Source of the DNA: Akkermansia muciniphila
GTDB lineage: Bacteria > Verrucomicrobiota > Verrucomicrobiia > Limisphaerales > F1-80-MAGS106
Direction of reading: 5' to 3'
DNA: 64,000 bases
Assembly: GCA_945865375.1 (NCBI GenBank)
Contig: CAMBEJ010000006.1
Coordinates: 1 to 64,000, forward strand
The position numbers were made by a program, and so were the translations under genes. Below are positions 8,591 through 24,552 of the stretch, in pieces (positions within the stretch are counted from its first letter, which is position 1; every line of letters begins with the position of its first letter). Below the pieces are notes generated by a model. The model was not told the DNA's origin, made no database searches, and worked only from the letters and a program-made list of their open reading frames with translations.

Positions 8591-9904
8591 CTATTCCAGC
8601 GTCACGGTGGGGGGTGTGGCGTAATCATTCCACAACCGATCCAGCTCTTGCTTGTTTGGGAGGCCATCGAAGACGACGAGGCGGTATTTTGAGATATAAG
8701 GCTTTCCGGGAGTGATCTCCATGTCGCCGCCTTGTTGGGGTGCGTAGTTAAAAAATGGCTCGGTGGGGTGAACCCGCATGGGTTGAGGGGCGCGGAAGTT
8801 GGAGGGATGACAAAGAATCGCGAGGCCGGACTGTTTGTCCTTGAATTTCCCGCCCATGTAGCACCAATTGGCACGCGTGGCATGGGCTTTCTCTCGATCC
8901 GTTTCGCCATTGGACGTCAACACCAGAAAGTTCTCTTTCCCATTCCAATGAGCGTTTCCCCTAAACCCCAGTCCTCCATAGCGATACTCTGGGAGTTTAA
9001 GCGTGGATTGGCCGCGGAGCAATTGGGTCGAGCTGATGTCGGCTATCCATGCCGGGTGTTTCTTGTCCAAGATCGCGTAGAGCTGGACGTGCCAGGTTTC
9101 GTCGAGGACCTCCAAAGGCTTGTCCGGGGTCATGTCCGTGTAGATATGTTTAGAAACGAATCCTGCATGCACATCGCCGCTCCATCGGCTCACAAGCGAC
9201 GAGAAATCCACCTTTCCCTTGCCATCTCCCATGTTCCAGAAATCTGGTTTTCGCCCTTCGAACTCCGTGTGGGTCCAGGCAGACCAGATCCCATGATGAT
9301 GCACATGGTTGGTGGGAAAATCGTCGGTAATGATTTGGCCGTCAGGGGTTCGGATTGGGTGCAGGTAACCACCTCGCTTGAAAATCGGTTTGATATCGGG
9401 CCGGGGCAATGGTCCCGCTTCGGTTTGATAACGAAACACAAGCTGTCCGTTCTCCTGGAGCCGGACGCCTCCAGTCTCAACCAGAGCCTCGACTGTTGGG
9501 TGACGCGACGCAGCCTGCGGCCTTGCCGCCCTGAGGGAGAGACTTTCTGTTCGCTTCAGTTGTGGGATGATGAACGACGCACCGCCCGATTCATCGTACT
9601 GCACCGGGAGATCTTTTCCATCCGGAGTTTTCAAAACGACAGGCTCGATCCATCCTTGAGGTTTCGCGAACGAGACCACGGTCTGGAGACGATCGAGTCC
9701 GCCCGCAGAAACGGTGATCTTTGCCGGGGTGAGGCCCTGCATCGAATGGGCGAACCCGAGACACAGTATCACGCCCATCCGGATGCCGAAGCGATGACGG
9801 GATTGGAATCCTTTCTGGGTCACGGCACCGGGTGTCACCGGAGTGGTTATCGAGCGGGCAGATTTTTGGTGTGTAGGCACAGGTTGCATGTGGGTTTTCG
9901 TCAT
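8591..9904 (-). CDS. PmoA/DUF6807 family protein
   Basis: DDFPTNHVHHHGIWSAWTHTEFEGRKPDFWNMGDGKGKVDF motif; signal-peptide-like N-terminal region. Confidence 0.8.
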   Translation of the reverse strand: MTKTHMQPVPTHQKSARSITTPVTPGAVTQKGFQSRHRFGIRMGVILCLGFAHSMQGLTPAKITVSAGGLDRLQTVVSFAKPQGWIEPVVLKTPDGKDLPVQYDESGGASFIIPQLKRTESLSLRAARPQAASRHPTVEALVETGGVRLQENGQLVFRYQTEAGPLPRPDIKPIFKRGGYLHPIRTPDGQIITDDFPTNHVHHHGIWSAWTHTEFEGRKPDFWNMGDGKGKVDFSSLVSRWSGDVHAGFVSKHIYTDMTPDKPLEVLDETWHVQLYAILDKKHPAWIADISSTQLLRGQSTLKLPEYRYGGLGFRGNAHWNGKENFLVLTSNGETDREKAHATRANWCYMGGKFKDKQSGLAILCHPSNFRAPQPMRVHPTEPFFNYAPQQGGDMEITPGKPYISKYRLVVFDGLPNKQELDRLWNDYATPPTVTLE

Positions 9905-10195: not shown

Positions 10196-12892
10196 TCACC
10201 AGGACTCCGACAGTTTTTCCACGACGTCCTTGCGTGCCAGCACGCGGGAGCAGAGTTCCCAGCGGCTTTTGTCGGGGTCGATGGTTTCCTTGTAGCGGAG
10301 TTCGAACACGTCCCGTGCCTTTTGTCGGAGGTGGATGTACTCGTCCATCATTTCTTCCAGCCGCTCCTCCGTATCAATCCAATCGTCTTCGATGGTGTCG
10401 GGCAGACCGCCGAAGATGTCGAACTTGTCCTTCAAGCGGCGCGACAGCACGCCATAGACCTTTTCGTCTTGGGTGTCGTGATACACGAGGTTGAGCATGT
10501 CCACGGAACAGCGGGCCTGGCCGAAGCGTTTGATGCGACCGAGCCGCTGCTCCAGCCGCGAGGGATTCCACGGGAGGTCCACGTTGATAAGCGTGCCGAG
10601 GGTTTGAAGGTTCAACCCCTCGCAGGCGGCGTCCGTGGCGACGACGAGCCGCACGCTGCGTTTCTTGACGGCTTTCTTGATCTCCTCGCGTTCGATGGAG
10701 GCGAACGCATCGCCCCGGAACATGCCGCTCTTGCCGGTGCCGGCATAGACGGCCACCGGCTCGGCCGGCAGAGTCTTCGCCAGCTCGGAGGCGATCCAGT
10801 GCGCGGTGTCGTAATACTGGCTGAAGACGATGCAGCCATGCTCCAGCCACGTTTTGCCCTCGGTTCGATGTTCGGTCAGGAAATAGCGGACGGCAGCGAG
10901 TTTGGGGTCGTGCGCTTCAGGTCGTGACAATTCCTCGACGATGGCGCGGAGGTGGCCAGCCTCGGCAGGAGTGAGCGAACTCAGCGGTTCGAGCAGCAAA
11001 GCTGCCTGTTCTTCATCTTCAAGCAATTCGCGCCGCAACATCTTCGTGGCCGTGCCGCGGCCGGAGGCGAAGCTGGAGCAGATGCGCTGGAGCAGCATGG
11101 ACTTCATGAAGCCGGCGGCCTTGGTGCGCTGTTGCAACGCGGCGGTGAAATCTTCGGCGGCTTTGTAGGCGAGATCGAACGGGTGGTTCGTGAGCAGGCC
11201 GAGGCCGTCAAAATGCACGCCGGGGTAGGCGGTCGAGGGAGCATCGGGAACGGGATGCACTTCGACCGCGACCCGCTCCAGCAAGCCCGCATCCTCCAAC
11301 GTCTGCCGGCGACGCAGGACGGTGTGACGGACGATGGGGTTGTGCTGCTGGTAGAAACCGGGAGACAACGTCTGGAGAACGGATTGCTGGGAGAAGAATT
11401 CCAGCGAGCCGAAGCCTTTGTCCGTAAAGAAGGCGTTGTCGGCAATGCCAAGCTGCAGGCGCAAGTTGGCGACCAGCGGTTCTTCGTCGCCGGGCGGGAG
11501 CGGGTTGCGGAGCCATTCCCAAGCATCGCGCTCGTCGAGCGGGATTTCATCTCCTTTGACGACGGGCAAAGCCCGTTGCAGATCAACCCACAGGCTGAGG
11601 GCCTCGCGTCCGAGGACGAAATCCGCGCCTGCATTCAGGATGCGCATCAAATCCCAAAGCTCGTGGACATGGGTCTGGATGGGCGTGGCCGTGCCGAGCA
11701 GGAGATTGCGGGTGCGCGGGCCGATGCGCAGCATGAAGTCGAGCAAGTTGTTCGACTCGTCCTTGTGCTCGCCGAGACCGCCGCGCCGCCGCGCTTTGTG
11801 GGCTTCGTCTAAAATGACAGTGCCGAATCTGCGTTCCAGCAAGCAGCGCCGCTCATCCGACGCGTGCAACATCAAGCCGGTGGAGACGATGGCGATGCGG
11901 AACGGGCAGCGGGTGATGTCCTCGGCGCCACGGGTCTTGATGGTGTGGCCGTGGGGGTCGATCCAGACCTTCCGCCCGGAGGACCAGACGGCGCTGGGAA
12001 TGCCGAGGCGGTCGTGCAACTCCACCTGCCACTGGAACGTGAGCGTCGAAGGGCAGAGGATGAGAACCGGGCCGTCATCGAGCAACGCGGACATCATGGC
12101 GCTAGCGGCGAGCGACAGCGTTTTGCCGACACCGACTTCATCAGCCAGGAGAAGGCGGGCCTTGCCGTAGGTCTCGCGGTGCTTAAGGAACATCGTGACG
12201 AACGCCCGTTGCCACGACTGGAGCTGTTCACCGCCGCGGTAGATGGGCGATTCAGCGAGAGCCGCGGCGGGCAATTCGGCGGGTCGGACTTGGTCGAATC
12301 GAACCTCGACGCGGTCCGCAATGCGCTTGATTTCCTCCACGATGGCCTCGGGCAGCGGGTAGGAATCCTTCCACAGCGCGTCGAATTCCTCCTCGACCCA
12401 GGCGACGCCTTCGGGCGATGGGTCTTCCCAAAGGATTTCGTAGTTGTGGGCGAACGCGCTTTTGGTCTCGTTGATGGAGCCCAGGAAGCACGTTTTTGAA
12501 CCGTCCGCCGCTTCGACCACGCCGGCCTTGCCATGAATGAACACCCGGTCTTTGGGGACGACGCGGATTTCGACGCGACCGCTGGTCAGTAGATCGTGGA
12601 GCTTGCGGTAGCGATCTCTGTATAACAATGCTTCGACCTCGGCAGGCGCCTCGTTCCAGCGTTCTTTGAGCGCGGTTTCTCGAACCTGTTTGGAGACGGC
12701 GACATCCGCCGCGTCGAGTTCGCTGTTGCAGACAATCTGGACTTGCGAGATGCCGGCGATTTCCTCACCGACGAGTTCGAAGATGGAACTGCGGAAGTAG
12801 CCGGCGATGCGGCGATAGGACTTCGCGCCCGCGAGCTTCTTTGACAGAAAGGCGTGATCCAGCCTTTGGCGGCGGGAGGAGAAGCGGTTCAT
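10196..12892 (-). CDS. PLD-like domain + SNF2-family DEAD/DEAH helicase
   Basis: PLD-like VFIHGKAGVVEAADGSKTCFLGSINET; Walker A LLADEVGVGKTLSLA; VILDEAHKARR; C-terminal ATDAACEGLNLQTLGTLINVDLPWNPSRLEQRLGRIKRFGQ. Confidence 0.95.
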   Translation of the reverse strand: MNRFSSRRQRLDHAFLSKKLAGAKSYRRIAGYFRSSIFELVGEEIAGISQVQIVCNSELDAADVAVSKQVRETALKERWNEAPAEVEALLYRDRYRKLHDLLTSGRVEIRVVPKDRVFIHGKAGVVEAADGSKTCFLGSINETKSAFAHNYEILWEDPSPEGVAWVEEEFDALWKDSYPLPEAIVEEIKRIADRVEVRFDQVRPAELPAAALAESPIYRGGEQLQSWQRAFVTMFLKHRETYGKARLLLADEVGVGKTLSLAASAMMSALLDDGPVLILCPSTLTFQWQVELHDRLGIPSAVWSSGRKVWIDPHGHTIKTRGAEDITRCPFRIAIVSTGLMLHASDERRCLLERRFGTVILDEAHKARRRGGLGEHKDESNNLLDFMLRIGPRTRNLLLGTATPIQTHVHELWDLMRILNAGADFVLGREALSLWVDLQRALPVVKGDEIPLDERDAWEWLRNPLPPGDEEPLVANLRLQLGIADNAFFTDKGFGSLEFFSQQSVLQTLSPGFYQQHNPIVRHTVLRRRQTLEDAGLLERVAVEVHPVPDAPSTAYPGVHFDGLGLLTNHPFDLAYKAAEDFTAALQQRTKAAGFMKSMLLQRICSSFASGRGTATKMLRRELLEDEEQAALLLEPLSSLTPAEAGHLRAIVEELSRPEAHDPKLAAVRYFLTEHRTEGKTWLEHGCIVFSQYYDTAHWIASELAKTLPAEPVAVYAGTGKSGMFRGDAFASIEREEIKKAVKKRSVRLVVATDAACEGLNLQTLGTLINVDLPWNPSRLEQRLGRIKRFGQARCSVDMLNLVYHDTQDEKVYGVLSRRLKDKFDIFGGLPDTIEDDWIDTEERLEEMMDEYIHLRQKARDVFELRYKETIDPDKSRWELCSRVLARKDVVEKLSESW

Positions 12893-14526
12893 TTACGCTG
12901 GGATTTCCGTTTGGCAATGTCCCGTTTGTCTCGTTTATGTCCCGTTTCGGCAGATGGCTTAACCGTGCCACCATTGGCCTTTCTTGACGAGTTGGCTTTG
13001 GCGGCCTTGTTCCGGGCTGGCGGCGGTCGAACTTTTGGCGCCTTTTCGGCAGCCTTTGCATTGGATGTCCCCATTGTCCCCTTAATGTCCCCTTTGCGTG
13101 CGAGGCAATAATAGGTGCCTCGCCCGGTCATGCCCACCTTGGCAAAGACACCCCGGCGCACGAGGTCGTTCAGGTCGCGGGACGCGGTTTTCTTGGTGGC
13201 GTGCGTGAGACGCTGATATTCAATATTCGCGATCCTCTGTCGAATCTTGACGAAGCCAACCGCCAGCCTCTGCCGCTCGTTGAGTCCCAGTGCGTTCACC
13301 ACCTTCTCCGTCAGCCAGTCGCGCCAGACTGCGGTGACGAATTCGCCAGCCCGCTGGAAGAAGTCAGGCTCGGGCAGGCCATGCGCCTGGCACTCGCGAA
13401 TCATCATCAGGGTGCCGGTGCCAAACTTCTCGATGTAACGAGCCAGGAAGAGCGCCTCGCAGAGGCGATGGTTGCGGGCGATGGAACTGTGCCGATGCCG
13501 AAGCTTCTCGGGCGTAAGGGGCGGAGGAAGCTGGCCTGGGTTCCACACCTCCAGGCGATCCGCAAACACGCAAACCTGCACTGCCGCATCGGAGGCGTAG
13601 TCGCGATGAACAATGGCATTGACGATCGCTTCGCGAAGCACGTCCGGCGGAATCTCGTAGCGCACGGGGGCTTGCACGCTCTCGCTGCGGGTGCCAACGC
13701 TCCGGTCGAGTTTGGCCAGCACGAAGTCGAGGGCCATGTCCACCTGGTCAAACAGGTTGCCCTTGAAGATGCGATAGTAGGGAACAGGGCGGACGATTTC
13801 CGTGCCGTGAAAGTGCATGCACCGCACTTCGGCGCTCGGGAGAAACCGCTGTGGGTTGCGCCCGAACAGCAGGACAGCGGCCTTGGTGGGCTGTCCGCCC
13901 AGGAGCAGGTTGAGATAAATCAGCACGTCCGCCAGGCCCGCTTCGTCGGACAACGGAAACTGTCGTTCTACTCTGGCCCGGCGCACAAAGGCAGCAACCG
14001 CCTTGGGATCCAGATCATCAAGCGTGGCGTCGGGGCACAGTTGCTCATCGAAGGGGCGGTCTTGCACCAAACCCTTCGCAGCGAGGTGCTCCACCAGGCT
14101 CGCGTAAAGCGCTGCTGTCAGCTCCGGCACGCCGTTAAACCGGCGGCGGATGAGTTGATCGCCTGCCCTGCGAATGAGCGCGCGCATTTTCGGATGCCGC
14201 CCCTGGTCGTCCGCACCTTTCACGAAAATCAACCGCGACTTGCCACCCCCCGTGGCGCGGTCGAACTCATGTTCCGTCGGCGAGACGCCATTCTTGTCCT
14301 CGAAGCCATATTCGTTGCCGAACAGCCCCACGTAGACCGCGCAGCGATCCACCTCATCGAGATAAACTTCATCCGCCCTGCGGTCAGTTGCCGGCAGATC
14401 CTCAAAGGCAAACGCTGTAAAAAACCGGCGCAATAGCGAGTCGCCCTCGATGAATGCCTTCACCGCCCGGCGCTCTTCTGCCAGTTCCTTTTGCACGCTG
14501 CTGATAAAGATCGGTGCGGTTGCCAT
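12889..14526 (-). CDS. DUF4062 + AlbA_2/Schlafen-type ATP-binding transcriptional-regulator-like protein
   Basis: PIFISSVQKELAEERRAVKAFIEGD (DUF4062); AIVNAIVHRDYASDAAVQVCVFADRLEVWNPGQLPPPLT. Confidence 0.85.
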   Translation of the reverse strand: MATAPIFISSVQKELAEERRAVKAFIEGDSLLRRFFTAFAFEDLPATDRRADEVYLDEVDRCAVYVGLFGNEYGFEDKNGVSPTEHEFDRATGGGKSRLIFVKGADDQGRHPKMRALIRRAGDQLIRRRFNGVPELTAALYASLVEHLAAKGLVQDRPFDEQLCPDATLDDLDPKAVAAFVRRARVERQFPLSDEAGLADVLIYLNLLLGGQPTKAAVLLFGRNPQRFLPSAEVRCMHFHGTEIVRPVPYYRIFKGNLFDQVDMALDFVLAKLDRSVGTRSESVQAPVRYEIPPDVLREAIVNAIVHRDYASDAAVQVCVFADRLEVWNPGQLPPPLTPEKLRHRHSSIARNHRLCEALFLARYIEKFGTGTLMMIRECQAHGLPEPDFFQRAGEFVTAVWRDWLTEKVVNALGLNERQRLAVGFVKIRQRIANIEYQRLTHATKKTASRDLNDLVRRGVFAKVGMTGRGTYYCLARKGDIKGTMGTSNAKAAEKAPKVRPPPARNKAAKANSSRKANGGTVKPSAETGHKRDKRDIAKRKSQRK

Positions 14527-14535
14527 CGTTTGGTT

Positions 14536-17532
14536 TTACCCCAGCCGCTGGTTCTTCACCATCTCCCGCAACACGCGGGCGGCGCTGGCTTCGTCGGGGC
14601 GGAGGGTTTCGAGCTTCTTGGCCAGGTAGTCGGCGAGTTCGACGACGCGGTCGCGCTGGGTTTGATCCGAATAGTAGTCGGGCACGTTCAGGACGAGGTG
14701 GGCGAGGACTTCGTTGCCGTCCACGTTCTTCGCCAGTTCCATGATGGCGTAGAGGACGGCGCGGAGGACTGATTGGTGGAGTTCCGAGCCTTCGCTCATC
14801 TCGTTCTTGCCGAATTCGACGGCGGTGCGAAGGCGGGCCTCGTTGGCTTTCTCATTGCCCATGAGGGCGCGAAAATCGCGGACTTTGAACGCCTTGGCGA
14901 AGTTCTGGTAGTTGTCCAGCGTCTTGAGGCCCTTGGCTTCGAGGTCGAGCAGCTTGAGATAAAAGCGCTCCGCGCCGGTGAACTCCTTCCAGTGGCGCTC
15001 TGGAATGCCTTGGGGGACGAGGCACTGGTTGGCGGTGTCCACGGCGAAGGCGATGAGGCCGTCCACAAAGGTCGTCTCGCCTTTCACTCGGGGGCGGATG
15101 GCTTCGGCGGTCATGTCGCGGCCGTCGATGATGAGGTAGCGTGTGAGCACGCGGAGGGCGGCGGCGTAACCGGCCATCTGGATGTCGGCGTCCTCGAAGA
15201 CGTTCTCATCGCGGTAAAGGCCCTTGGCTTCCTGGTTCAGGCCGGTGAGGTCGCGGATCTGCTTTTCGACCTCCTCCTGAATCTCCCAAGCAAGGTCGTC
15301 GCGAGTGGTCTTGTGAGTGCCGGACCGTTTCCGTAGGACGAGAAGGACTGTGCCCTTCACGTTGCTTCCCGCGCGCAAGGCGCTCTCTGTTTCGGTGACA
15401 ACATACCACGCAGCGGTGACTTGCAGCCCGGAGGCCCAGACGATGTTCGCCATGTCCGCCCAGATGCTCTCGGACTGGTGGGTGAACATGACGACCTGGA
15501 TGCCGTTGTCCGGCATACACTCCGTCATGCGCTTGTAGGCGGCGACCATACTGCGGCGGAAGTCCTCGCCGTCACCTTTGATGGCGAGCGAGCGGCGGCT
15601 GTCCCAAACCCAATCTGCAAACTCCTTCGGCGGGTTCTTGCGGAGCCAACCGATGAAGAACTCAAGGATTTCGTGGTAGTTCACCGCGTCGCCGTAGGGC
15701 GGGTCGGTCACATACACGTCGTTCTGGCCGGTCATTTGGTCCGCCGGCACGGCGGCGATTCGAGCCGCGATGCCGCCGAGTGGAAACGACTTGTATTCCT
15801 TGCCAAGGAACGGAGTGAGATTCTCCGAGCCTCTCGTGCCGTATTGAAGGAGCGTGTTGAGAGCTTGGTTTGAAAAAACGTTCTTCACCCCGGCTCGCCC
15901 GCCGCCAGACGAGTCCCACATACTGAGCCTCGCGTTGTGTTGGATGGCCTGTGCGAACGCGGGTTTTAGGATTGCGCTGGTGTGCCGATTGATGAGCGCG
16001 TTGACGAGCAACTGACGCGGATTGAAGAGGTGGCTCCAGTGCGTCCAACCTCGCGTTCGAATCGGCTCGTCAGTTTTCTCACCCGGTTCGATGCGCATCT
16101 CCGGAATCCAGCCTTTTGCCTGCCACTCCGCGAAATGCTTCGAAACGAACTCCTCGACGGTGCGTTCTCGCTTGAGGTCATCTTCTGTCACCGAGCGGAA
16201 TTCGAGATAGAATCCTTTCCCTGTTTTCTTCGGCTTCGTCCATTGCACCGCGTAAAGCCGTTCTTGGAAAATGTCATCGGTCCGTGGTTTGAAATCGCTC
16301 TTATCCCACATGCGCAGCCTATTTGCGGTTGCGCCATCCGGTGCTCGGTAATCCCCGCGCAACGTGGAGACCTTGGTCGTCGTCTCGCAGCCGGGATGAA
16401 TCACATAGGGGTCTTGGCCACGCCCGCCCGTCCGCACCGTGCCTTTCGAGGCCGTCTTCATTTCCTCGGCGGTGGCACCGTTGCGAAGCTTGATGTCGTA
16501 GCGCTTCCGCTGCTCATCCATCATCAACTCGACAATCGCGCCGACGTCCACGCTCACGAGTTGGCTGGGCAGGAGCGGCACCAGCCATCCGTCGGGCATA
16601 CGCGCCTCAACGCAGTAGAGATAAGCGCGTGCTCTCCAACCCTGTCCGTCGGTTTCGATACCGAGCGCATCGACCTCTTCGCGAATCTTGGCGACAAGTT
16701 TCTTCTGCTCACGCGCAAGTTCCTCGCGGCTGGCCTGAGCACCGCCAACGATGTGAAACGCACCCCAGGTCAACATGCACGCGATGGGATTGAGGTCGGA
16801 GGCATAGACATCGCAACCGAGACGGGCCGCCTCGAAAGGGATTTGGCCTGAGCCGCAGAAAGTGTCGCCCACGCGAGGACGATGACCAAAGCGCATGATG
16901 CCAAGCTGCTCGACCAACTCCGGGAACGAATGCGCGGTGGTGCCGAGGTGGGCATTGACCGCTTCCCAGATATGGACGTGGACGGTGTCCATGACTTCCT
17001 CGGGCCGTTTCGCCTGGTCCACGCGCTCGCGATACGGGGCCTTCGGCAGCAACTGGGCTTCGAGCTGGCGACGCTCCAACTCCGTGATGTTGTCCCGCCA
17101 CCGGACCTTCACGCCCGCCAACTCCGGCTTGGACCAATCCACGGGCGCCGATGGAGGCAGGAGCAGGGGCGGGTCGGAAACGAAGTAATCGGCGATACGG
17201 GCAATGCTCAAGGTGGCGAGGATTTCGCGAGGTTTGGCACGCCGGGGCCAGCGGGCGACGAAGGATTCATCGTCCATCGCCATGAGCTTCTCAAAGATTT
17301 CCAGGTCGCGCTTGGGATCGTCCGTGGCCGGGAGGAGACAGCCGAGGATGCAGGCTTTGTTCAGGATGAGCGGCTTTCGGCCTTTCCAGTAGGAGCCGAG
17401 CGCGGTGAGCGTCTTGCCCTGATTCGACATCTGCTCCTTGTAAGCCTCGGCGGAGAGTTTCTGGACGGGCAGGAGCCGCTCGATGAGCGCGGGGGCGTCC
17501 TTGAGCGCGAAGGGTTTCACGGGCTGGCTCAT
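14536..17532 (-). CDS. DUF1156 domain DNA methyltransferase (COG1743-like)
   Basis: 998 aa; DTFCGSGQIPFEAARLGCDVYASDLNPIAC (SAM motif) and DVYVTDPPYGDAVNYHEILEFF (DPPY). Confidence 0.92.
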   Translation of the reverse strand: MSQPVKPFALKDAPALIERLLPVQKLSAEAYKEQMSNQGKTLTALGSYWKGRKPLILNKACILGCLLPATDDPKRDLEIFEKLMAMDDESFVARWPRRAKPREILATLSIARIADYFVSDPPLLLPPSAPVDWSKPELAGVKVRWRDNITELERRQLEAQLLPKAPYRERVDQAKRPEEVMDTVHVHIWEAVNAHLGTTAHSFPELVEQLGIMRFGHRPRVGDTFCGSGQIPFEAARLGCDVYASDLNPIACMLTWGAFHIVGGAQASREELAREQKKLVAKIREEVDALGIETDGQGWRARAYLYCVEARMPDGWLVPLLPSQLVSVDVGAIVELMMDEQRKRYDIKLRNGATAEEMKTASKGTVRTGGRGQDPYVIHPGCETTTKVSTLRGDYRAPDGATANRLRMWDKSDFKPRTDDIFQERLYAVQWTKPKKTGKGFYLEFRSVTEDDLKRERTVEEFVSKHFAEWQAKGWIPEMRIEPGEKTDEPIRTRGWTHWSHLFNPRQLLVNALINRHTSAILKPAFAQAIQHNARLSMWDSSGGGRAGVKNVFSNQALNTLLQYGTRGSENLTPFLGKEYKSFPLGGIAARIAAVPADQMTGQNDVYVTDPPYGDAVNYHEILEFFIGWLRKNPPKEFADWVWDSRRSLAIKGDGEDFRRSMVAAYKRMTECMPDNGIQVVMFTHQSESIWADMANIVWASGLQVTAAWYVVTETESALRAGSNVKGTVLLVLRKRSGTHKTTRDDLAWEIQEEVEKQIRDLTGLNQEAKGLYRDENVFEDADIQMAGYAAALRVLTRYLIIDGRDMTAEAIRPRVKGETTFVDGLIAFAVDTANQCLVPQGIPERHWKEFTGAERFYLKLLDLEAKGLKTLDNYQNFAKAFKVRDFRALMGNEKANEARLRTAVEFGKNEMSEGSELHQSVLRAVLYAIMELAKNVDGNEVLAHLVLNVPDYYSDQTQRDRVVELADYLAKKLETLRPDEASAARVLREMVKNQRLG

Positions 17533-18905
17533 GGTTTCCGGGGCTTCCGTCGCCGGAGTGGCTGGGCGGCGGGCGTTTTTGTTCTAGGAGCAGGCTCAGA
17601 TGGGCGGCTGTCCGTAAGAGCTTCGATGCGGGCGCGGTCGGTTTCGACAAAGCGCTGAAGCTGTTCGGCGGAGGGCAGGGCCGTGAGGTAGCGGGAGACG
17701 AAGAGCTTGTTGGCCATGCCGGCGGTGGCGAACTCGACCTTGGTGTGGTCCTTGTCGCTGCACAGGAGGATGCCCACGGGCGGCTGGTCGCCGTCGGCCA
17801 TCATGCGGGACTTGAAAAAGTTGAGGTAGTAGTTCATCTGGCCCGCGTCGCCGTGCTTGAAGGGGCGGATTTTCAAATCGAGCAGGACGTGGCAGCGGAG
17901 CCGCCGGTGATAGAAGACGAGGTCCACGTAGTCGTGCTCGTTGCCGAGGGTCACGCGGAACTGGCGGGCCTCGAAACAGATGCCGGTGCCGAGTTCGAGG
18001 AGGAATTTTTGCAGGTGGTCGAGCAGGGCCGTTTCGAGGTCGTTCTCGGTGTAGTGCGGCAGTTCGCCAAGGCCGGTGAATTCCAGGACGTAGGGATCGC
18101 GAATGAGGTCGGCGATGGTTTCCTGCGGCTCCTGGGCACGGGCGCGTTTGATGACGGCGGCCTTGTTTTTGGAAAGGCCGGTGCGCTCGAAGAGGAGGGA
18201 ACCGATCTGGCGCTGGAGCTGGCGCACGGACCAGTTGCCCTTGAGGCATTCGTTCTCGTAGAAGGCACGCTTGAGCGGGTCGTCGAGGCGGATGAGTTCG
18301 ATGAGCTGAGTCCAGGAGAAATGAAGGACGGCATTCGCGGAGAGGGGCGTGATGCTGCCGGCAGATTTCCGCAGCAGTGGTGCGGAAATTGGTTTCGGCT
18401 CGTCCGTGAAGGATTCCGTCATCAGGGATGACGGAATCAGCGAACCACTGGCGATTTCCAATTCCCTCATCACTGATGAGGATTTCTCGATTCGTTGCAG
18501 CGCCGGAGCAAAGTCCAATTTCCTCATCACTGATGAGGAAATTGATGTGCTCAACTGCGGATAGGCGTAATACAGATGACGTGTTCGCTCCAGCATCTGC
18601 ACGCTGAGCCCCTTCACCGCACGCTTTTGAAGGTCGTTGGCCAGCCGATTCAACAGATTTGATCCATACTTAGCGCGGTCTTCCCCACGCTGCTCAAACT
18701 CCACGACATATGCACCGATGAGCCAGTTGCGGATGACCAGCGACTGGTTGACGGCGGCAGCCGCGCGCCCGAGCAGTTGCCGGCTCGCGGTGTCGATGGT
18801 CTTGACGAGTTCGACGTATTTCATTGGCAAAGCATTCCTGGATGGCAGCAGTGGACGGATTCGCTCATGGGCGACTCCGTTCGGGAAGCGCTGCCCGCAC
18901 GACAT
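17529..18905 (-). CDS. DUF1016 (YhcG-like) PDDEXK nuclease, paralog 1
   Basis: HDYVDLVFYHRRLRCHVLLDLKIRPFKHGDAGQMNYYLNFF, PDDEXK-like core; ATGA overlap with next gene. Confidence 0.9.
   Translation of the reverse strand: MSCGQRFPNGVAHERIRPLLPSRNALPMKYVELVKTIDTASRQLLGRAAAAVNQSLVIRNWLIGAYVVEFEQRGEDRAKYGSNLLNRLANDLQKRAVKGLSVQMLERTRHLYYAYPQLSTSISSSVMRKLDFAPALQRIEKSSSVMRELEIASGSLIPSSLMTESFTDEPKPISAPLLRKSAGSITPLSANAVLHFSWTQLIELIRLDDPLKRAFYENECLKGNWSVRQLQRQIGSLLFERTGLSKNKAAVIKRARAQEPQETIADLIRDPYVLEFTGLGELPHYTENDLETALLDHLQKFLLELGTGICFEARQFRVTLGNEHDYVDLVFYHRRLRCHVLLDLKIRPFKHGDAGQMNYYLNFFKSRMMADGDQPPVGILLCSDKDHTKVEFATAGMANKLFVSRYLTALPSAEQLQRFVETDRARIEALTDSRPSEPAPRTKTPAAQPLRRRKPRKP
18365..18544. repeat. 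cluster of four palindromic hairpin units inside DUF1016 paralog 1
   Basis: ATTTCCGCA/TGCGGAAAT 18365-18389; GATTCCGTCATC/GATGACGGAATC 18412-18438; CCTCATCA/TGATGAGG 18465-18481; CAATTTCCTCATCA/TGATGAGGAAATTG 18516-18544. Confidence 0.95.
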
Positions 18906-20037
18906 CGGAAAGCTGTTTGGCCGTCGGCAGTTTTCCCTTCAAGTCCGCCGGGAGTTTCGACTGGAGTTGATAGACAGCCACCCCGATGGGATTGCTCTTG
19001 GAGCGCAGGGCGTATTCGACTTCCACGTCGTCCTTTTCCGCGCAGAGGATGATGCCGATGGAGGGTTGGTCGTCCGGGGCGCGTTGCTTGTCATTGAGCA
19101 GATTGAGGTAGAAATCCATCTTGCCGGCGAACTCCGGCTCGAACGGCCCCATCTTGAGATCGAACGCGACGAGCGCCCGGAGGAAGCGGTGATAGAAAAG
19201 CAGATCCATGAAATACTCCTTCTGGCCGAGGGTGAGCCGGTATTGGCGGCCGACGAAGCAGAAGCCATAGCCGAGTTCGAGGAGAAACGCTTGCAGACGG
19301 GAGATGAGTCGGTCTTCGAGCTCGCGCTCCTTGACCGCGCCCTGGAGGCCAAGGAACTCGAGGTTGTAGGAGCTTTTGAGCATCTCGTCCGCCTGCGCGG
19401 CCAGGTTTTCCGGCAGGGCGAGCGGGAAGTTGTGGGATTTCTTCTCCGTAACGGCCCGCTTATACGCCCCCGCCTTGATCTGGTTGAGGAGGACGTTGCG
19501 CGTCCAGCCGAAGCGGGCGGTGGCGCGGAGGTAGTAGAGGCGGGCGGCGGGGTCGGCAAGTTTGTCGAGAATGAGCCGGTGATGTCCCCACGGAATTTCT
19601 GCCACAAGCTGTGGCAGAATTTGGATCGGAGCAGCGCCGTCTTCAATTTTGGCGACAGGTTGTCGCCCAAATGCGGTGCTTTTCCGGAATGGCTTCGGAT
19701 CTGCTGCAGCTTGTGGCAGAAAGTCACCCGTGCCATAGACTTCGAACAGTCGTCGCATATACCACACGTTACGGGGAGAAAAGCCGGTCATCTGCGGAAA
19801 GGCCCGCCGCAAGTCGGCGGAAATCATTTCCACCACGGACTCTCCCCAGCCCAGCACATGCTGCTTCTCGACAATGGCCCGCCCAATGTCCCAGTAGAGC
19901 AGGATGCCCTCGCGGTTCATGGCCCGCGCCGCAGAGATGCGGGCCGAGATCACCCGCGTCTTCAGATCCTCAATAAACTGCCGGTATTCCGGCGAGGTCA
20001 TTACGGGCGCATTTTTCGCTCTCTTCATGGCCTTCAT
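18865..20037 (-). CDS. DUF1016 (YhcG-like) PDDEXK nuclease, paralog 2
   Basis: AEIPWGHHRLILDKL and KEYFMDLLFYHRFLRALVAFDLKMGPFEPEFAGKMDFYLNLLND; 41-nt overlap with paralog 1. Confidence 0.92.
   Translation of the reverse strand: MKAMKRAKNAPVMTSPEYRQFIEDLKTRVISARISAARAMNREGILLYWDIGRAIVEKQHVLGWGESVVEMISADLRRAFPQMTGFSPRNVWYMRRLFEVYGTGDFLPQAAADPKPFRKSTAFGRQPVAKIEDGAAPIQILPQLVAEIPWGHHRLILDKLADPAARLYYLRATARFGWTRNVLLNQIKAGAYKRAVTEKKSHNFPLALPENLAAQADEMLKSSYNLEFLGLQGAVKERELEDRLISRLQAFLLELGYGFCFVGRQYRLTLGQKEYFMDLLFYHRFLRALVAFDLKMGPFEPEFAGKMDFYLNLLNDKQRAPDDQPSIGIILCAEKDDVEVEYALRSKSNPIGVAVYQLQSKLPADLKGKLPTAKQLSDVVRAALPERSRP
19597..19719. repeat. cluster of palindromic hairpin units inside DUF1016 paralog 2
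   Basis: TTCTGCCACA/TGTGGCAGAA 19597-19619; TTTTGGCGACA/TGTCGCCCAAA (1 mismatch) 19647-19671; imperfect CTGCTGCA/TGTGGCAG about 19701-19718. Confidence 0.85.
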
Positions 20038-20624
20038 GCTTTTGCCTTCATCCTTTCCAGATCGAACAACGGCAGGCTGAAGAGATCGCTCTCCACCGGG
20101 CGACGGCGCTTGCGGCCCTCGGGCGGCTTCTCACCGTCGGAGAGGGCGAGGAACAAGGCCCGTCGCCAGCCGCGCTGGGTGTCCTCCGGCAGGCCAGCTT
20201 CGGCGACGGTCATGGAGAAGAGCCACCAGCGTTCCTCGGGGCGGAGCGCGGCCCACTTGCTGCAAATCACGGGAAGCTGATCGCCGTTGGCTGTCTCCGC
20301 GGCCCAGGCCAGGACGCAGAGTTCCTTGCCGAGCAGGCGGTCCACGAGGTTGGTGCCGCTGTGCCAACGGCCGGTGGGCGCCTTGGCGACCTTGAGTCGG
20401 TCGTTGAACTCGCGCCGGGCGATGTCCGCGATGCCGGACCAGCCGGCACGGGTGAGGATGACACGTTCTTCATCGCGAGGGATGCCGCCTTCGAGACCGC
20501 GATAGCCGAAGTCCTCCACGATGCGAACAGGTTCGGTGCGAACCGCGGGCAGCTCAACGCGGAAAAGATGCGCGCCGAACTTATCGGGTGCGCCGAAGTC
20601 CACGAGCTGGAGCGTCTCGTTCAT
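20034..20624 (-). CDS. DUF3780 domain-containing protein
   Basis: 196 aa; GAPDKFGAHLFRVELP...WHSGTNLVDRLLGKELCVLAWAAE; between DUF499 and DUF1016 genes with ATGA overlaps. Confidence 0.8.
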   Translation of the reverse strand: MNETLQLVDFGAPDKFGAHLFRVELPAVRTEPVRIVEDFGYRGLEGGIPRDEERVILTRAGWSGIADIARREFNDRLKVAKAPTGRWHSGTNLVDRLLGKELCVLAWAAETANGDQLPVICSKWAALRPEERWWLFSMTVAEAGLPEDTQRGWRRALFLALSDGEKPPEGRKRRRPVESDLFSLPLFDLERMKAKA

Positions 20625-23560
20625 TGCTCCACATCAACGGGATTGAGTTCCATGCCTAGCTTTTCGGCAAAGTCCCTGAGGTCGTGGCCGGAATTAAAGT
20701 GCGCTTTGCGGAAGGTCATGGTGACCGGCGTGTCGGGCGCGAACTTCTCCAGCGTCGTCTTGAGGATGGCTTCGATGAAGGCGGCGTTCACCGGAATTTC
20801 GCCGACAAAGAAGGTGGCGACCTGGGTGCCGCTGCCGACATTGACAGTGACGTTCTCGAACGTGACGGATTTCTCTGTGGCTTGCTTGAGGCCCTCGAAG
20901 GTCTTGGCACGGGAATCAAGCTTTCGACCCGTTCGGGAGACAAGGCGGCCCGGTTTCACGGCGTCCAACTGGAGGCCCTTCTTGCCCTTGGCCGGGTAGC
21001 GGAACTCGGATTTGGCCTCCAGGCCGCTGGCCTCAGCGAACACACGCACGAGGGTCTCGCCTTCGCCGATTTCGACGGGCTTGTCGTAAAGCAGGCCTTC
21101 GCGGGGTTCCTCGCCGCCGAGCGTGTATCGAATCTTGCCAGCGGGCGCGACGAGCAGCTCGACGCTCCGTTTGCCACCGGTTTCCGTGAGGTGGTTGCGG
21201 AGGACGAGCCGGTTCGACCAGGTGACCACGTCGCCAGCTTCGTATTGGCCGGAGGGGTCCACGACGAGGAAGTTCACCCGGAGCGCCTTGGTGGTGAGGA
21301 ACTGGTCCTTGAGCTGCGGACTTTTTTCGCCGACAGGCCCCTCTTCAGCGTAGTGGATGCGAGGGGCCGGGCCGGCGTTCTGGGCGTTGATGCGCAGACG
21401 GACCTCGCCCTTATCGTCGGGCTCGGACTCGGCGATGACCTGAACGGACGTGCGTTTCTTTTTCGGTTTCTTCGTGACGTAGCCATTGCCGAGGTCCTCC
21501 CAGAGGCCTCGATTGCAGGCGATGGATTTGAGCGTATCGAGGCCCTTGGGTGGCAGCCACGGCATGCCGGCCTGCTCGGTGTAGCGGTCGGCCACGTCAG
21601 ACCATCGGGCTTCGTCCTGATTCTCCGGCCAGAGGAGATCCTGGGATTTGTCACGGATGGGGTCAAAATCCTTCTCAACGTCAAGATAGAGCTTGAGCGG
21701 GTTCGACGTGAGGGTTTTCTCCACCTGGGCCTCGCCGTCGAAGGGCTTGGTCTGGTCTCTTCCTGAGTCGAGCGGCTTGCCGGCGAGCTGCGATGGCTTG
21801 CCCGCCCGTTGGATGGGGAAGAGGACTTTGTCGAACAAGTTCAGCACAGTGGAATTGAAATCTTGCTCGTAAGATTGCTGCTTCTTTTCCAGCTCGTCGC
21901 GCTGCGGGTGGCCCTTGGGGATGCGGCCATCAGCCTTTTGCACGGCGTAAACCTGACGCGCTGCCTTCTCAACGCTGCCCATCGCGGTCTTGTCGCCGGT
22001 AAGCACGCAGAGATTGTTCTTCTGGCTGAGGCCGTCGAAAAACTTTTGCACTTCCTCGGGTGGTATTTTGGAGTCCGGGCTGACGATGAGCAGGACTCGA
22101 CTCTTACGAACCTTGTCAGCGACATCCTCCAGCTTGGGCAACGGCAGGACTTCTTCGTAAGCGGATTTGCGCGTGGGCTTGAACATGTCGCGCAGACGGT
22201 GGCGGATGAGGTCGTCCACCTGATTCTCCGGGGCGTCGTGGGCAAGGCTTTGGAGGAGTTTGGTGAGGTTCTCCTGCCGGTCAAAGTAGTAACGGCCCTC
22301 CTGAGTGTGGTGGATATACCACGCGTTTTCTTCGAGCTGCTGAAACGATTCGAGGAACGCGGACGGCTCGCGCAAAGGCGACACGAGGCACTCGACCATC
22401 TCGGCGGTCGTGAGGCCCTTCACAGCGTTGACGGCGGTGGAAAGGCTGGCTGTGAGCAGGAGCGAGCCGACCTGAGCAGCGGCCTCCTTGCCGGTGCAGA
22501 GGTCGATGATTTGCGCGTGGGCAGACTGCTGGGCATCCCAAAGGTCCCTGGCGATGACGTCGCGCATTCCCGAGATTTCGGTGAGCTTGTCCCGGACCTC
22601 GGCGATGGACAGGTCGAAGTGCTGGGGGCCGATGAGGAAGACATCGTTCGACTTGCCGTCCCAGACGGAACGCAGGAGGCGCGAGACGAGTTCGATGATG
22701 CCGCGAGTCTGCTTGAACTGCTCGTTCTCCTTGAACAGCGCGATCACGTTTTTCAGGCGCGGGTGGAACGGATACGTCGCGGCAATCTCGTCGGCGATAG
22801 CCTCCGCGCCGCGATTGGCGACCTTCGACTTGGAGGCTTCCTCCAGTTTTTTGCCGTAGGCGTCGGCGATGTCGTCGATCTCCGCCTTGTCAGGAAGCTG
22901 CGTGAAAAGGCGTTTGCGGAGAATGTCGTAGATTTCGTTGGCGGCAAGATCAACGGGGGTGATGTGGCGCTCGGCTCGGCCAAGCTCCTGGCGGGCATTG
23001 TCGAGGGCGCGATTGATCAGCGCCCCGCCGGACTGGTAAGCGGCGAACAGGTCGGAGATGACCACGCAGACGTTGGACTTTTTGCCGGCCGCGGTCAGGA
23101 GGTTCGCGAACGCGCGCGTCGCGATGTCGGCCACGGTGCCCGCGCCGACGGGCCGGGTGGCGAGGTCTTCGAAGTAGGGCGGCATTTCATCCAACAAGAT
23201 GAGGATGGGTTCTTTGCCCTCGAACAGCTTGAGCCAGGCTTTTTCGTCCGGTGCCTTCGGACCCGAGGCCCAGAACTCTTGGAACACGTCGGCTCTGCCG
23301 AGTTGTTGGGCGATTTCGCCCCAGAAGAAATGGGGTGGGCTGTTACGGCCGTTGAAAGCGGCCACGCGGGCGGTGTCGAACATCTGGGAGTTGGCATCGC
23401 CACCGCAGTATTTCCTACGAAGGGAGGGATGCTTGGCGAGCAAGCCAAAGCCGACGAGCAAGTGGGTTTTGCCGCCGCCCATCGCCTGCTTTAGATGAAA
23501 CACTGCCTGGGTTGAGACGCTTGCGAGGCGGGCGAGGCCCTCGGTCACTAGGTCCTGCAT
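20621..23560 (-). CDS. DUF499 domain AAA+ ATPase (COG1483-like); 5' end uncertain, apparent frameshift upstream
   Basis: FHLKQAMGGGKTHLLVGFGLLAKHP; ILILLDEMPPYFEDLATRPVGAGTVADIATRAFANLLTAAGKKSNVCVVISDL; frame stays open to 23708 without an ATG. Confidence 0.92.
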   Translation of the reverse strand: MQDLVTEGLARLASVSTQAVFHLKQAMGGGKTHLLVGFGLLAKHPSLRRKYCGGDANSQMFDTARVAAFNGRNSPPHFFWGEIAQQLGRADVFQEFWASGPKAPDEKAWLKLFEGKEPILILLDEMPPYFEDLATRPVGAGTVADIATRAFANLLTAAGKKSNVCVVISDLFAAYQSGGALINRALDNARQELGRAERHITPVDLAANEIYDILRKRLFTQLPDKAEIDDIADAYGKKLEEASKSKVANRGAEAIADEIAATYPFHPRLKNVIALFKENEQFKQTRGIIELVSRLLRSVWDGKSNDVFLIGPQHFDLSIAEVRDKLTEISGMRDVIARDLWDAQQSAHAQIIDLCTGKEAAAQVGSLLLTASLSTAVNAVKGLTTAEMVECLVSPLREPSAFLESFQQLEENAWYIHHTQEGRYYFDRQENLTKLLQSLAHDAPENQVDDLIRHRLRDMFKPTRKSAYEEVLPLPKLEDVADKVRKSRVLLIVSPDSKIPPEEVQKFFDGLSQKNNLCVLTGDKTAMGSVEKAARQVYAVQKADGRIPKGHPQRDELEKKQQSYEQDFNSTVLNLFDKVLFPIQRAGKPSQLAGKPLDSGRDQTKPFDGEAQVEKTLTSNPLKLYLDVEKDFDPIRDKSQDLLWPENQDEARWSDVADRYTEQAGMPWLPPKGLDTLKSIACNRGLWEDLGNGYVTKKPKKKRTSVQVIAESEPDDKGEVRLRINAQNAGPAPRIHYAEEGPVGEKSPQLKDQFLTTKALRVNFLVVDPSGQYEAGDVVTWSNRLVLRNHLTETGGKRSVELLVAPAGKIRYTLGGEEPREGLLYDKPVEIGEGETLVRVFAEASGLEAKSEFRYPAKGKKGLQLDAVKPGRLVSRTGRKLDSRAKTFEGLKQATEKSVTFENVTVNVGSGTQVATFFVGEIPVNAAFIEAILKTTLEKFAPDTPVTMTFRKAHFNSGHDLRDFAEKLGMELNPVDVEQ

Positions 23561-23967
23561 GCCCTGCGTGATGAAAGTCTTTTCGAAAAACGTGGCACCG
23601 TCGCCCTCGGCATGAATCAGTTCGTCGAGCTGCTCGATCTGGTCGCTCAGTTTGATCGCCCGCCGTTGGGCTGAAGTTTGCAGGCGTCTCGGACGGTTTT
23701 CATCTTCTTAGTAATCTGTCATCACGCTTTCCATCCTCAGATTGCGCTTCGTGGGAGGATGCCCGACAACACACGGGGCTGCATCAGAAAAATTGCTGGT
23801 GAATTTGGGTATTCATCAGCCGACCCTCGCCGCCGCATGATCACGGTGCTAACGCCACTCGCGGGACTGGGTGCGTGCTGTGACTTCGTTGAGAACAAAG
23901 TATCTTCGCTCACATTTCGCTGTTGCCGGGAGCGCGCGACATAGGCACCGTGATATCTTGAACGAGC

Positions 23968-24552
23968 ATGGCAAACTCCAGCGGCGATAGTCTCCAGCGG
24001 GCGCTGCGAATCAGCAGCGCCTGGATTCTGCTCATCTTTCTCGTCATGCTTGTGAGCCGGCTCTCGCCGATTCCTTTCGAGTCCTTCGGTGTGCGACCGC
24101 GTACGCTGACCGGGTTGCCGGGCGTGTTGCTCATGCCTCTGCTGCACGCCAACTTCCCGCACATTCTCGCCAACGCCCTTCCACTCTTCATCCTGCTGAC
24201 CCTGCTGTTCTGGGACCGCCGTTACCGGCCTTGGACGACTTTGCCACTGATCTGGCTGGCCAGCGGGTTGGGGACTTGGCTCATCGGGCGGGGAGGGCAG
24301 TGGCGGGGCGAGATGGTGGTGCACATCGGGGCCAGCGGCGTCGTGTTCGGCTTGGTGGCGTATTTGATCGTCGCGGGGGTTCTTATTCAGAGCTGGCGTT
24401 CGGCGTTCATCGGCATCCTCGTGTTCCTGTTCTTTGGGGGGATGTTCCTGGGCATGATCCCGCAAGCTGGACCGGTGTCGTGGGAAGGGCACCTGAGCGG
24501 CGCAGTCGCGGGCGTTTGGGCGGCACGGAAGTGCCATAGTCGGCCTCTTTGA
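23968..24552 (+). CDS. rhomboid family intramembrane serine protease
   Basis: Hydrophobic 194 aa; ANFPHILANALPLFIL and HIGASGVVFGLVAYL (GxSG-type) motifs. Confidence 0.85.
   Translation: MANSSGDSLQRALRISSAWILLIFLVMLVSRLSPIPFESFGVRPRTLTGLPGVLLMPLLHANFPHILANALPLFILLTLLFWDRRYRPWTTLPLIWLASGLGTWLIGRGGQWRGEMVVHIGASGVVFGLVAYLIVAGVLIQSWRSAFIGILVFLFFGGMFLGMIPQAGPVSWEGHLSGAVAGVWAARKCHSRPL

Follow-up and report, generated by a model that had tools for sequence, protein, structure and literature searches.

A probable Type-2 BREX-related operon with exchangeable defence cargo in two slots

The window, the whole 64,000-nucleotide stretch of DNA that we analysed, carries seven minus-strand genes of a Verrucomicrobiota genome. 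Very likely, they constitute a restriction-like operon of the Type-2 BREX-related (BR) kind in which two fixed slots take exchangeable defence cargo. The core of this operon is already named and catalogued, and the combination of its cargo genes is new. The window reveals the docking sites of accessory defence genes in Type-2 BR operons, and two observations are worth keeping: the two-slot pattern itself, and the replacement of an RNase by a putative NADase on one regulatory chassis.

Organization of the operon

From the open frames and their Pfam domains, we identified an uninterrupted run of seven consecutive genes on the minus strand at positions 10196-23560. Pfam, PADLOC and NCBIfam assigned these genes, in the order of transcription, to a DUF499 ATPase, a DUF3780 protein, two DUF1016/YhcG PD-(D/E)XK nucleases, a DUF1156 methylase, a DUF4062-HATPase_c_4 protein and a PLD-SNF2 helicase. 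The original prediction had proposed a seven-gene operon here, and all seven genes were confirmed, with the start of the DUF499 gene corrected as discussed below. The overlaps and spacing that it gave for the gene junctions (-4, -4, -41, -4, +9 and -4 nt in the order of transcription) were exact, and Pfam recovered the DUF499, DUF3780, DUF1016 (twice, as DUF1016_N/YhcG_C), DUF1156, DUF4062 and PLD-SNF2 (PLDc_2, SNF2 and Helicase_C) domains that it named. The seven genes may be expressed as one transcript.

The G+C content of the operon is 61%, against about 56% on either side. A divergent rhomboid gene (23968-24552, plus strand) lies upstream, and a DUF6807 gene (8591-9904, minus strand) lies downstream. 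No further defence genes were found among the scanned neighbours of the operon, and no direct or inverted repeats of 11 bases or more border its ends. A search limited to the sigma-70 type gave no convincing promoter upstream, and no convincing terminator was detected at the operon ends. An empty insertion site was sought in genomes of the same genus: in one (G290), the left flank is kept to position 9718, where the contig stops, and the right flank is on another contig; in a second (G289), the flanks are likewise split by a contig break.

Identity of the core genes

All four core proteins scored above the NCBIfam "anti-phage" equivalog cut-offs (NF042961-NF042964), and they matched the PADLOC core models over their full length (PADLOC 2023; PDLC02189-02193). 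The DUF499 AAA+ ATPase gene (20621-23560, minus strand) matched PF04465 (4e-22), PF13287 (5e-6), NF042962 (1407 bits; cut-off 1200) and PDLC02192 (1519 bits). Its open frame of 979 aa has a Walker A motif, GGGKT, at residues 28-32 and, near the C-terminus, one FnIII-like stretch recognized above cut-off as Fn3_assoc (805-846) and CHB_HEX_C_1 (797-847). The DUF3780 protein (20034-20624, minus strand; 196 aa), a hallmark of Type-2 BR, matched PF12635 (3e-69) and NF042961 (228 bits; cut-off 200). A DUF3780 gene is present in 10 of the 320 genomes of the host order, and among annotated phages a DUF3780-like gene is recorded once, in Proteus phage vB_PvuS_Pm34 (KY420199.1:1108-1563).

The DUF1156 DNA methyltransferase (14536-17532, minus strand; 998 aa) matched PF06634 (8e-20) and NF042963 (1310 bits; cut-off 1000). 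It is probably of the adenine-N6 type and has the catalytic motif TDPPY at residues 609-613, in which DPPY is invariant. Compared with its counterpart in the closest related locus, L014, the methylase is 84-100% identical towards both ends and 42-66% identical between residues ~250 and 600; this middle region is hypervariable, as expected for a target-recognition region. The last core gene (10196-12892, minus strand) encodes an HKD/PLD nuclease-SNF2 helicase of 898 aa (PLDc_2 1e-12, SNF2 1e-12, Helicase_C 8e-15; NF042964 1227 bits, cut-off 1100; PDLC02193 1486 bits). Its PLDc_2 domain at residues 23-174 precedes the SNF2 domain at 235-421, and the HKD motif (H120, K122 and N141) lies in a conserved HGKAG...GSxNE pattern.

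In its main text, PMC12839542 (NAR 2026) describes Type-2 BR as a DUF499 ATPase, a DUF1156 N6-methylase, an HKD-helicase and a standalone DUF3780 protein; the system is reported there from 1120 taxa, and in 53% of them FnIII-like domains precede the RRM at the C-terminus of DUF499. The same parts were found in the window, namely the DUF499 AAA+ ATPase with its FnIII-like stretch, DUF1156, an N-terminal HKD in place of TUDOR, and a standalone DUF3780. The restriction-like or BREX-like reading of the original prediction could thus be given the name Type-2 BR. Its DISARM-like alternative did not hold, since the DrmD model scored 178 bits against a cut-off of 610 and no DrmB-type gene is present among the seven. 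BREX proper was also ruled out, because neither the seven genes nor the neighbours that were scanned gave a PglZ/BrxZ domain.

The cargo genes

The three remaining genes occupy the two junctions on either side of the methylase gene: slot A, between the DUF3780 and methylase genes, and slot B, between the methylase and helicase genes. Slot A contains two DUF1016 PD-(D/E)XK nuclease genes, Y1 (18865-20037, minus strand; 390 aa; YhcG_C 2e-60, DUF1016_N 1e-34, PDC-S02 4e-129) and Y2 (17529-18905, minus strand; 458 aa; YhcG_C 3e-52, PDC-S02 6e-123). In an alignment, both keep the active-site D and DxK motif, which reads D...DLK in Y1. A recent duplication was ruled out, as Y1 and Y2 are 34% identical and have different best PADLOC models. 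No relatives of Y1 were found in viral contigs.

Slot B holds a 545-aa protein (12889-14526, minus strand) in which a DUF4062 domain (PF13271, 1e-20) is followed by a linker, HATPase_c_4 (PF13749, 2e-19) and a winged helix-turn-helix (wHTH). An AlbA label had been put on this gene, and it had to be dropped: PF04326, the AlbA/Schlafen domain, was absent at E 0.1, whereas genuine Schlafen-HATPase proteins of related operons matched it at 7e-17 to 3e-12 (AlbA_2 is carried by L014, L092 and L045). The predicted structure, acceptable for residues 1-150 and the wHTH only and poor elsewhere, matches DIP2311 and nucleoside deoxyribosyltransferases, which are relatives of TIR folds.

A profile built from six sequences of the DUF4062 protein matched the HATPase part of DIP2311 (3lmm) and, over residues 5-169, the solved chain of KpSwz (10wc; E 5.5e-5). 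DUF4062 proteins were shown by experiment to be TIR-like NADases, and KpSwz in particular is an experimentally established NADase and brings about abortive infection; E97 is its catalytic residue, mutated in the cryo-EM construct described (E97A; PMC13174449). Indeed, in the column of E87 of the window protein, the solved KpSwz chain has Ala and the natural relatives L121 and L122 have Glu. Both E85 and E87 are invariant in the family of the window protein, and E87 is the catalytic Glu predicted from the alignment. The DUF4062 protein is thus probably an NAD-destroying suicide enzyme. The AUX winged-HTH domain of KpSwz, which binds the phage portal, was not found, the KpSwz match stopping at residue 169; beyond this residue, the window protein has HATPase_c_4 and a wHTH that resembles Fic C-termini.

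Among viral contigs there was a single match to the DUF4062 protein, confined to the HATPase part. This region also resembles the PADLOC pAgo-associated SIR2 models. On the Mesorhizobium plasmid pB2-1-8 (L095:7212-9773), a SIR2 protein that shares the linker-HATPase region adjoins a type I RM operon, which makes SIR2 the third killing domain seen on this chassis. Tentatively, and with low confidence, we suggest that the linker-HATPase-wHTH part may be a general sensor chassis with a swapped killing domain (Schlafen RNase, DUF4062 NADase or, elsewhere, SIR2), which in Type-2 BR would be gated by the state of the core, so that a blocked core fires the suicide domain.

Cargo slots in related loci

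Using an alignment of the methylase, we scanned a single genome of each species and took the best 80 of 370 loci together with eight from viral contigs; the resulting 88 loci are biased towards close methylase relatives. We assigned the genes of these loci in phmmer searches with the window proteins and counted the gaps of more than 300 nt between neighbouring core genes. The order of the core genes was constant across the 88 loci, and the window has the same order. Such gaps occurred between the DUF499 and DUF3780 genes in 2 of 78 loci, in slot A in 18 of 82, and in slot B in 26 of 76.

The cargos were identified by Pfam and PADLOC scans of representatives, and the rest by phmmer clustering. 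Most of the scanned cargos matched known or candidate defence families. DarT with a macro domain (DarTG) occupies slot B of seven loci (L015, at 12916-14731, L027, L028, L036, L049, L069 and L090) with a nearly constant spacing of ~1.7 kb, and slot A of three viral loci contains the macro partner, accompanied in L008 by the DarT partner. DUF4062-HATPase was found in slot B of six loci, the window included, and the Schlafen AlbA_2-HATPase cargo in slot B of L014 and slot A of L092. DUF1016 genes were detected in slot A of only three of the 88 loci: two in the window and one each in L014 and L042, which come from the same host order. Further cargos were AbiJ_NTD4 (PDC-S32; L016), GmrSD (L038), Fic (L033), a HEC-01-like AAA with DUF4276 (L070), PDC-S01 (slot A of L022), PDC-M28 (L093) and DUF3800 (L044). 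Some gaps hold no gene of a recognized family, and the gap of L007 holds an IS1 transposase. In another locus (L112:1527-3059; G327:C6), the N-terminal half of a 510-aa frame is GmrSD/DUF262-like, and the remainder is the C-terminal part of the DUF1156 methylase, from ~residue 731. This frame adjoins an intact Schlafen-HATPase gene and a helicase, and is either a deletion fusion or a chimeric assembly.

PADLOC and HMM searches returned the core as already catalogued, and the exact seven-gene combination was found in none of the other loci among the 88. As had been suggested, the DUF1016 pair and the DUF4062 gene mark a variant, in the limited sense that among the 88 loci their combination is unique to the window and no other locus has two DUF1016 genes; they are, however, exchangeable cargo and not fixed members. 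Five other loci have DUF4062 in the same slot.

Cargo exchange between close relatives

The window and L014 share 92.4% identity for DUF499, 92.5% for the helicase and 81% for the methylase, as opposed to 41% for DUF1016 and 26% for the slot-B protein. L014 has a Schlafen protein where the window has the NADase-like DUF4062 protein, and only the linker-HATPase-wHTH parts of the two can be aligned. The similarity in DNA to L014 and L016 ends at or near the ends of core genes; with L016, it covers 20064-23704 and 14536-17532 and resumes at the helicase start at 12892. In a FastTree tree of the core from 74 loci, the window grouped with L014 (Schlafen), L016 (AbiJ-like) and L044 (DUF3800), all of them with different slot-B cargo, and the DUF4062 cargo changed at least four times on well-supported branches. 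The DUF4062 proteins of five distant operons are 55-65% identical to that of the window, and the cores of these operons are 67-81% identical; the protein may therefore have long resided in slot B and have given way to other cargo in the sister operons. This exchange of a Schlafen RNase for a TIR-like, putative NADase on a regulatory part common to both, in operons with 92% identity in the ATPase and the helicase, provides a natural pair for testing whether the cargo is coupled to the core or rides along.

Discussion

In the families concerned, the methylase marks, the ATPase surveys and the HKD-helicase cuts, which together give a restriction-modification (RM)-like core. In the window, the hypervariable middle region of the DUF1156 methylase would determine the sites at which this enzyme marks adenines of the host, DNA would be surveyed by the DUF499 ATPase together with DUF3780, and the HKD-SNF2 helicase, presumed to be the main effector, would move and cut incoming DNA that lacks the mark. 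The cargo would add further defence layers under the same promoter as the core: the two DUF1016 nucleases may help to cut DNA, and the DUF4062-HATPase-wHTH protein may, when the core fails, act as an NADase that causes abortive infection. An RM-like core is also proposed for Type-2 BR in the main text of PMC12839542.

The backup-layer part of this proposal, and that part only, competes with an explanation to which we give an even chance, namely that the cargo consists of autonomous defence genes that ride in the operon for a shared promoter and easy recombination, with no functional link, and that the core works the same without them. Indeed, a protein 46% identical to the whole DUF4062-HATPase protein stands alone, without BR genes, on a Legionella anisa plasmid (L094:114-11497), DUF1016 homologues occur in 455 plasmid records, slot B in 50 of 76 loci and slot A in 64 of 82 have no gap above 300 nt, and DarTG is known to be embedded in a similar way within an operon for type I RM (PMC12255303). 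However, of the four junctions between cargo and core in the window, three are overlaps of 4 nt, suggesting translational coupling, and cargo is confined to two junctions, hardly ever entering between DUF499 and DUF3780. Autonomous cargo is therefore about as likely as coupled cargo, because the same proteins occur without the core and yet these overlaps are present. (The Legionella plasmid also has a DUF1016 nuclease gene ~9 kb from its DUF4062-HATPase gene.) A distinct seven-gene machine, a subtype of its own with the DUF1016 pair and the DUF4062 protein as integral subunits, is on the other hand highly improbable. Seven tightly packed genes in one orientation would agree with such a machine, as would the DUF1016 genes that L014 and L042, both of the same host order, have in slot A, but the set recurs in no other locus of the 88, the L014 and L042 proteins are only 40-41% identical to Y1 though their DUF499 proteins are 89-92% identical to that of the window, and DUF1016 is absent from the close relatives L016 and L044, in which slot B has other cargo.

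The DUF499 gene bears on whether the window copy works at all. The gene had been taken to be open up to 23703; DNA and protein alignment with L014, L016, L042 and L044 instead placed its original 5' end at 23561-23703 (minus strand), outside the present open frame. The ATG at 23703 (MKTVRDACKLQPN) opens the conserved start MKTVRDAC-LQPN, after which, near 23660 (~codon 14), the gene has one base fewer than in these four relatives and goes out of frame. The open frame from the in-frame ATG at 23560 consequently lacks 49 conserved N-terminal residues and keeps Walker A. If the sequence is right, the interruption near the start means that the window copy may be dead, and DUF499 could be a frameshifted pseudogene in a decaying operon. 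We consider this unlikely, as the six other genes and the remaining 979 DUF499 codons are intact, the in-frame ATG (with the conserved GMQDLV) could restart translation, and the DUF499 frame of L032 is similarly short at the N-terminus. A base-call error is also plausible in a single draft assembly; since this draft genome is in 266 contigs, a real lesion and an assembly error at ~23660 are indistinguishable.

Read as a Type-2 BR system with exchangeable cargo, the window operon agrees with the description in the main text of PMC12839542 in its four core genes, the FnIII-like part of DUF499, the N-terminal HKD of the helicase and the standalone DUF3780, and differs by the addition of two DUF1016 nucleases and the NADase-like DUF4062-HATPase gene. 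The docked genes include non-nuclease effectors (putative NADase, DarTG and Fic) that go undiscussed in the main text of this catalogue, which covers nucleases; that text makes no mention of DarT, TIR, SIR2, NADase, DUF1016 or DUF4062, some of which its supplements may list. Hma, or Type-1 BR, shares the helicase-methylase-ATPase logic and has a related ATPase and methylase. It was ruled out by scores far below those of the Type-2 models (HmaA 114 bits; HmaB 76 and HmaC 162, against 1435 and 1519 for the Type-2 models), by the presence of DUF3780 and by the N-terminal PLD of the window helicase. As in Swarozyc (PMC13174449), the DUF4062 domain aligns with KpSwz over residues 5-169 with the catalytic Glu column kept, but HATPase_c_4-wHTH takes the place of the portal-binding AUX, and the gene sits in a BR operon. 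With the Schlafen-HATPase-wHTH backup effectors of BREX/BR loci, as described in the main text of PMC12839542, the window protein shares an alignable linker-HATPase-wHTH part and, in L014, the same slot, the AlbA_2 RNase domain being replaced by DUF4062. Finally, DarTG2 in type I RM (PMC12255303) and Septu in Hma (cited there) likewise place a second defence system between the genes of a first, and compared with such cargo in RM operons, the type found in the window occupies two slots of a BR operon that recur between loci and take many different cargos.
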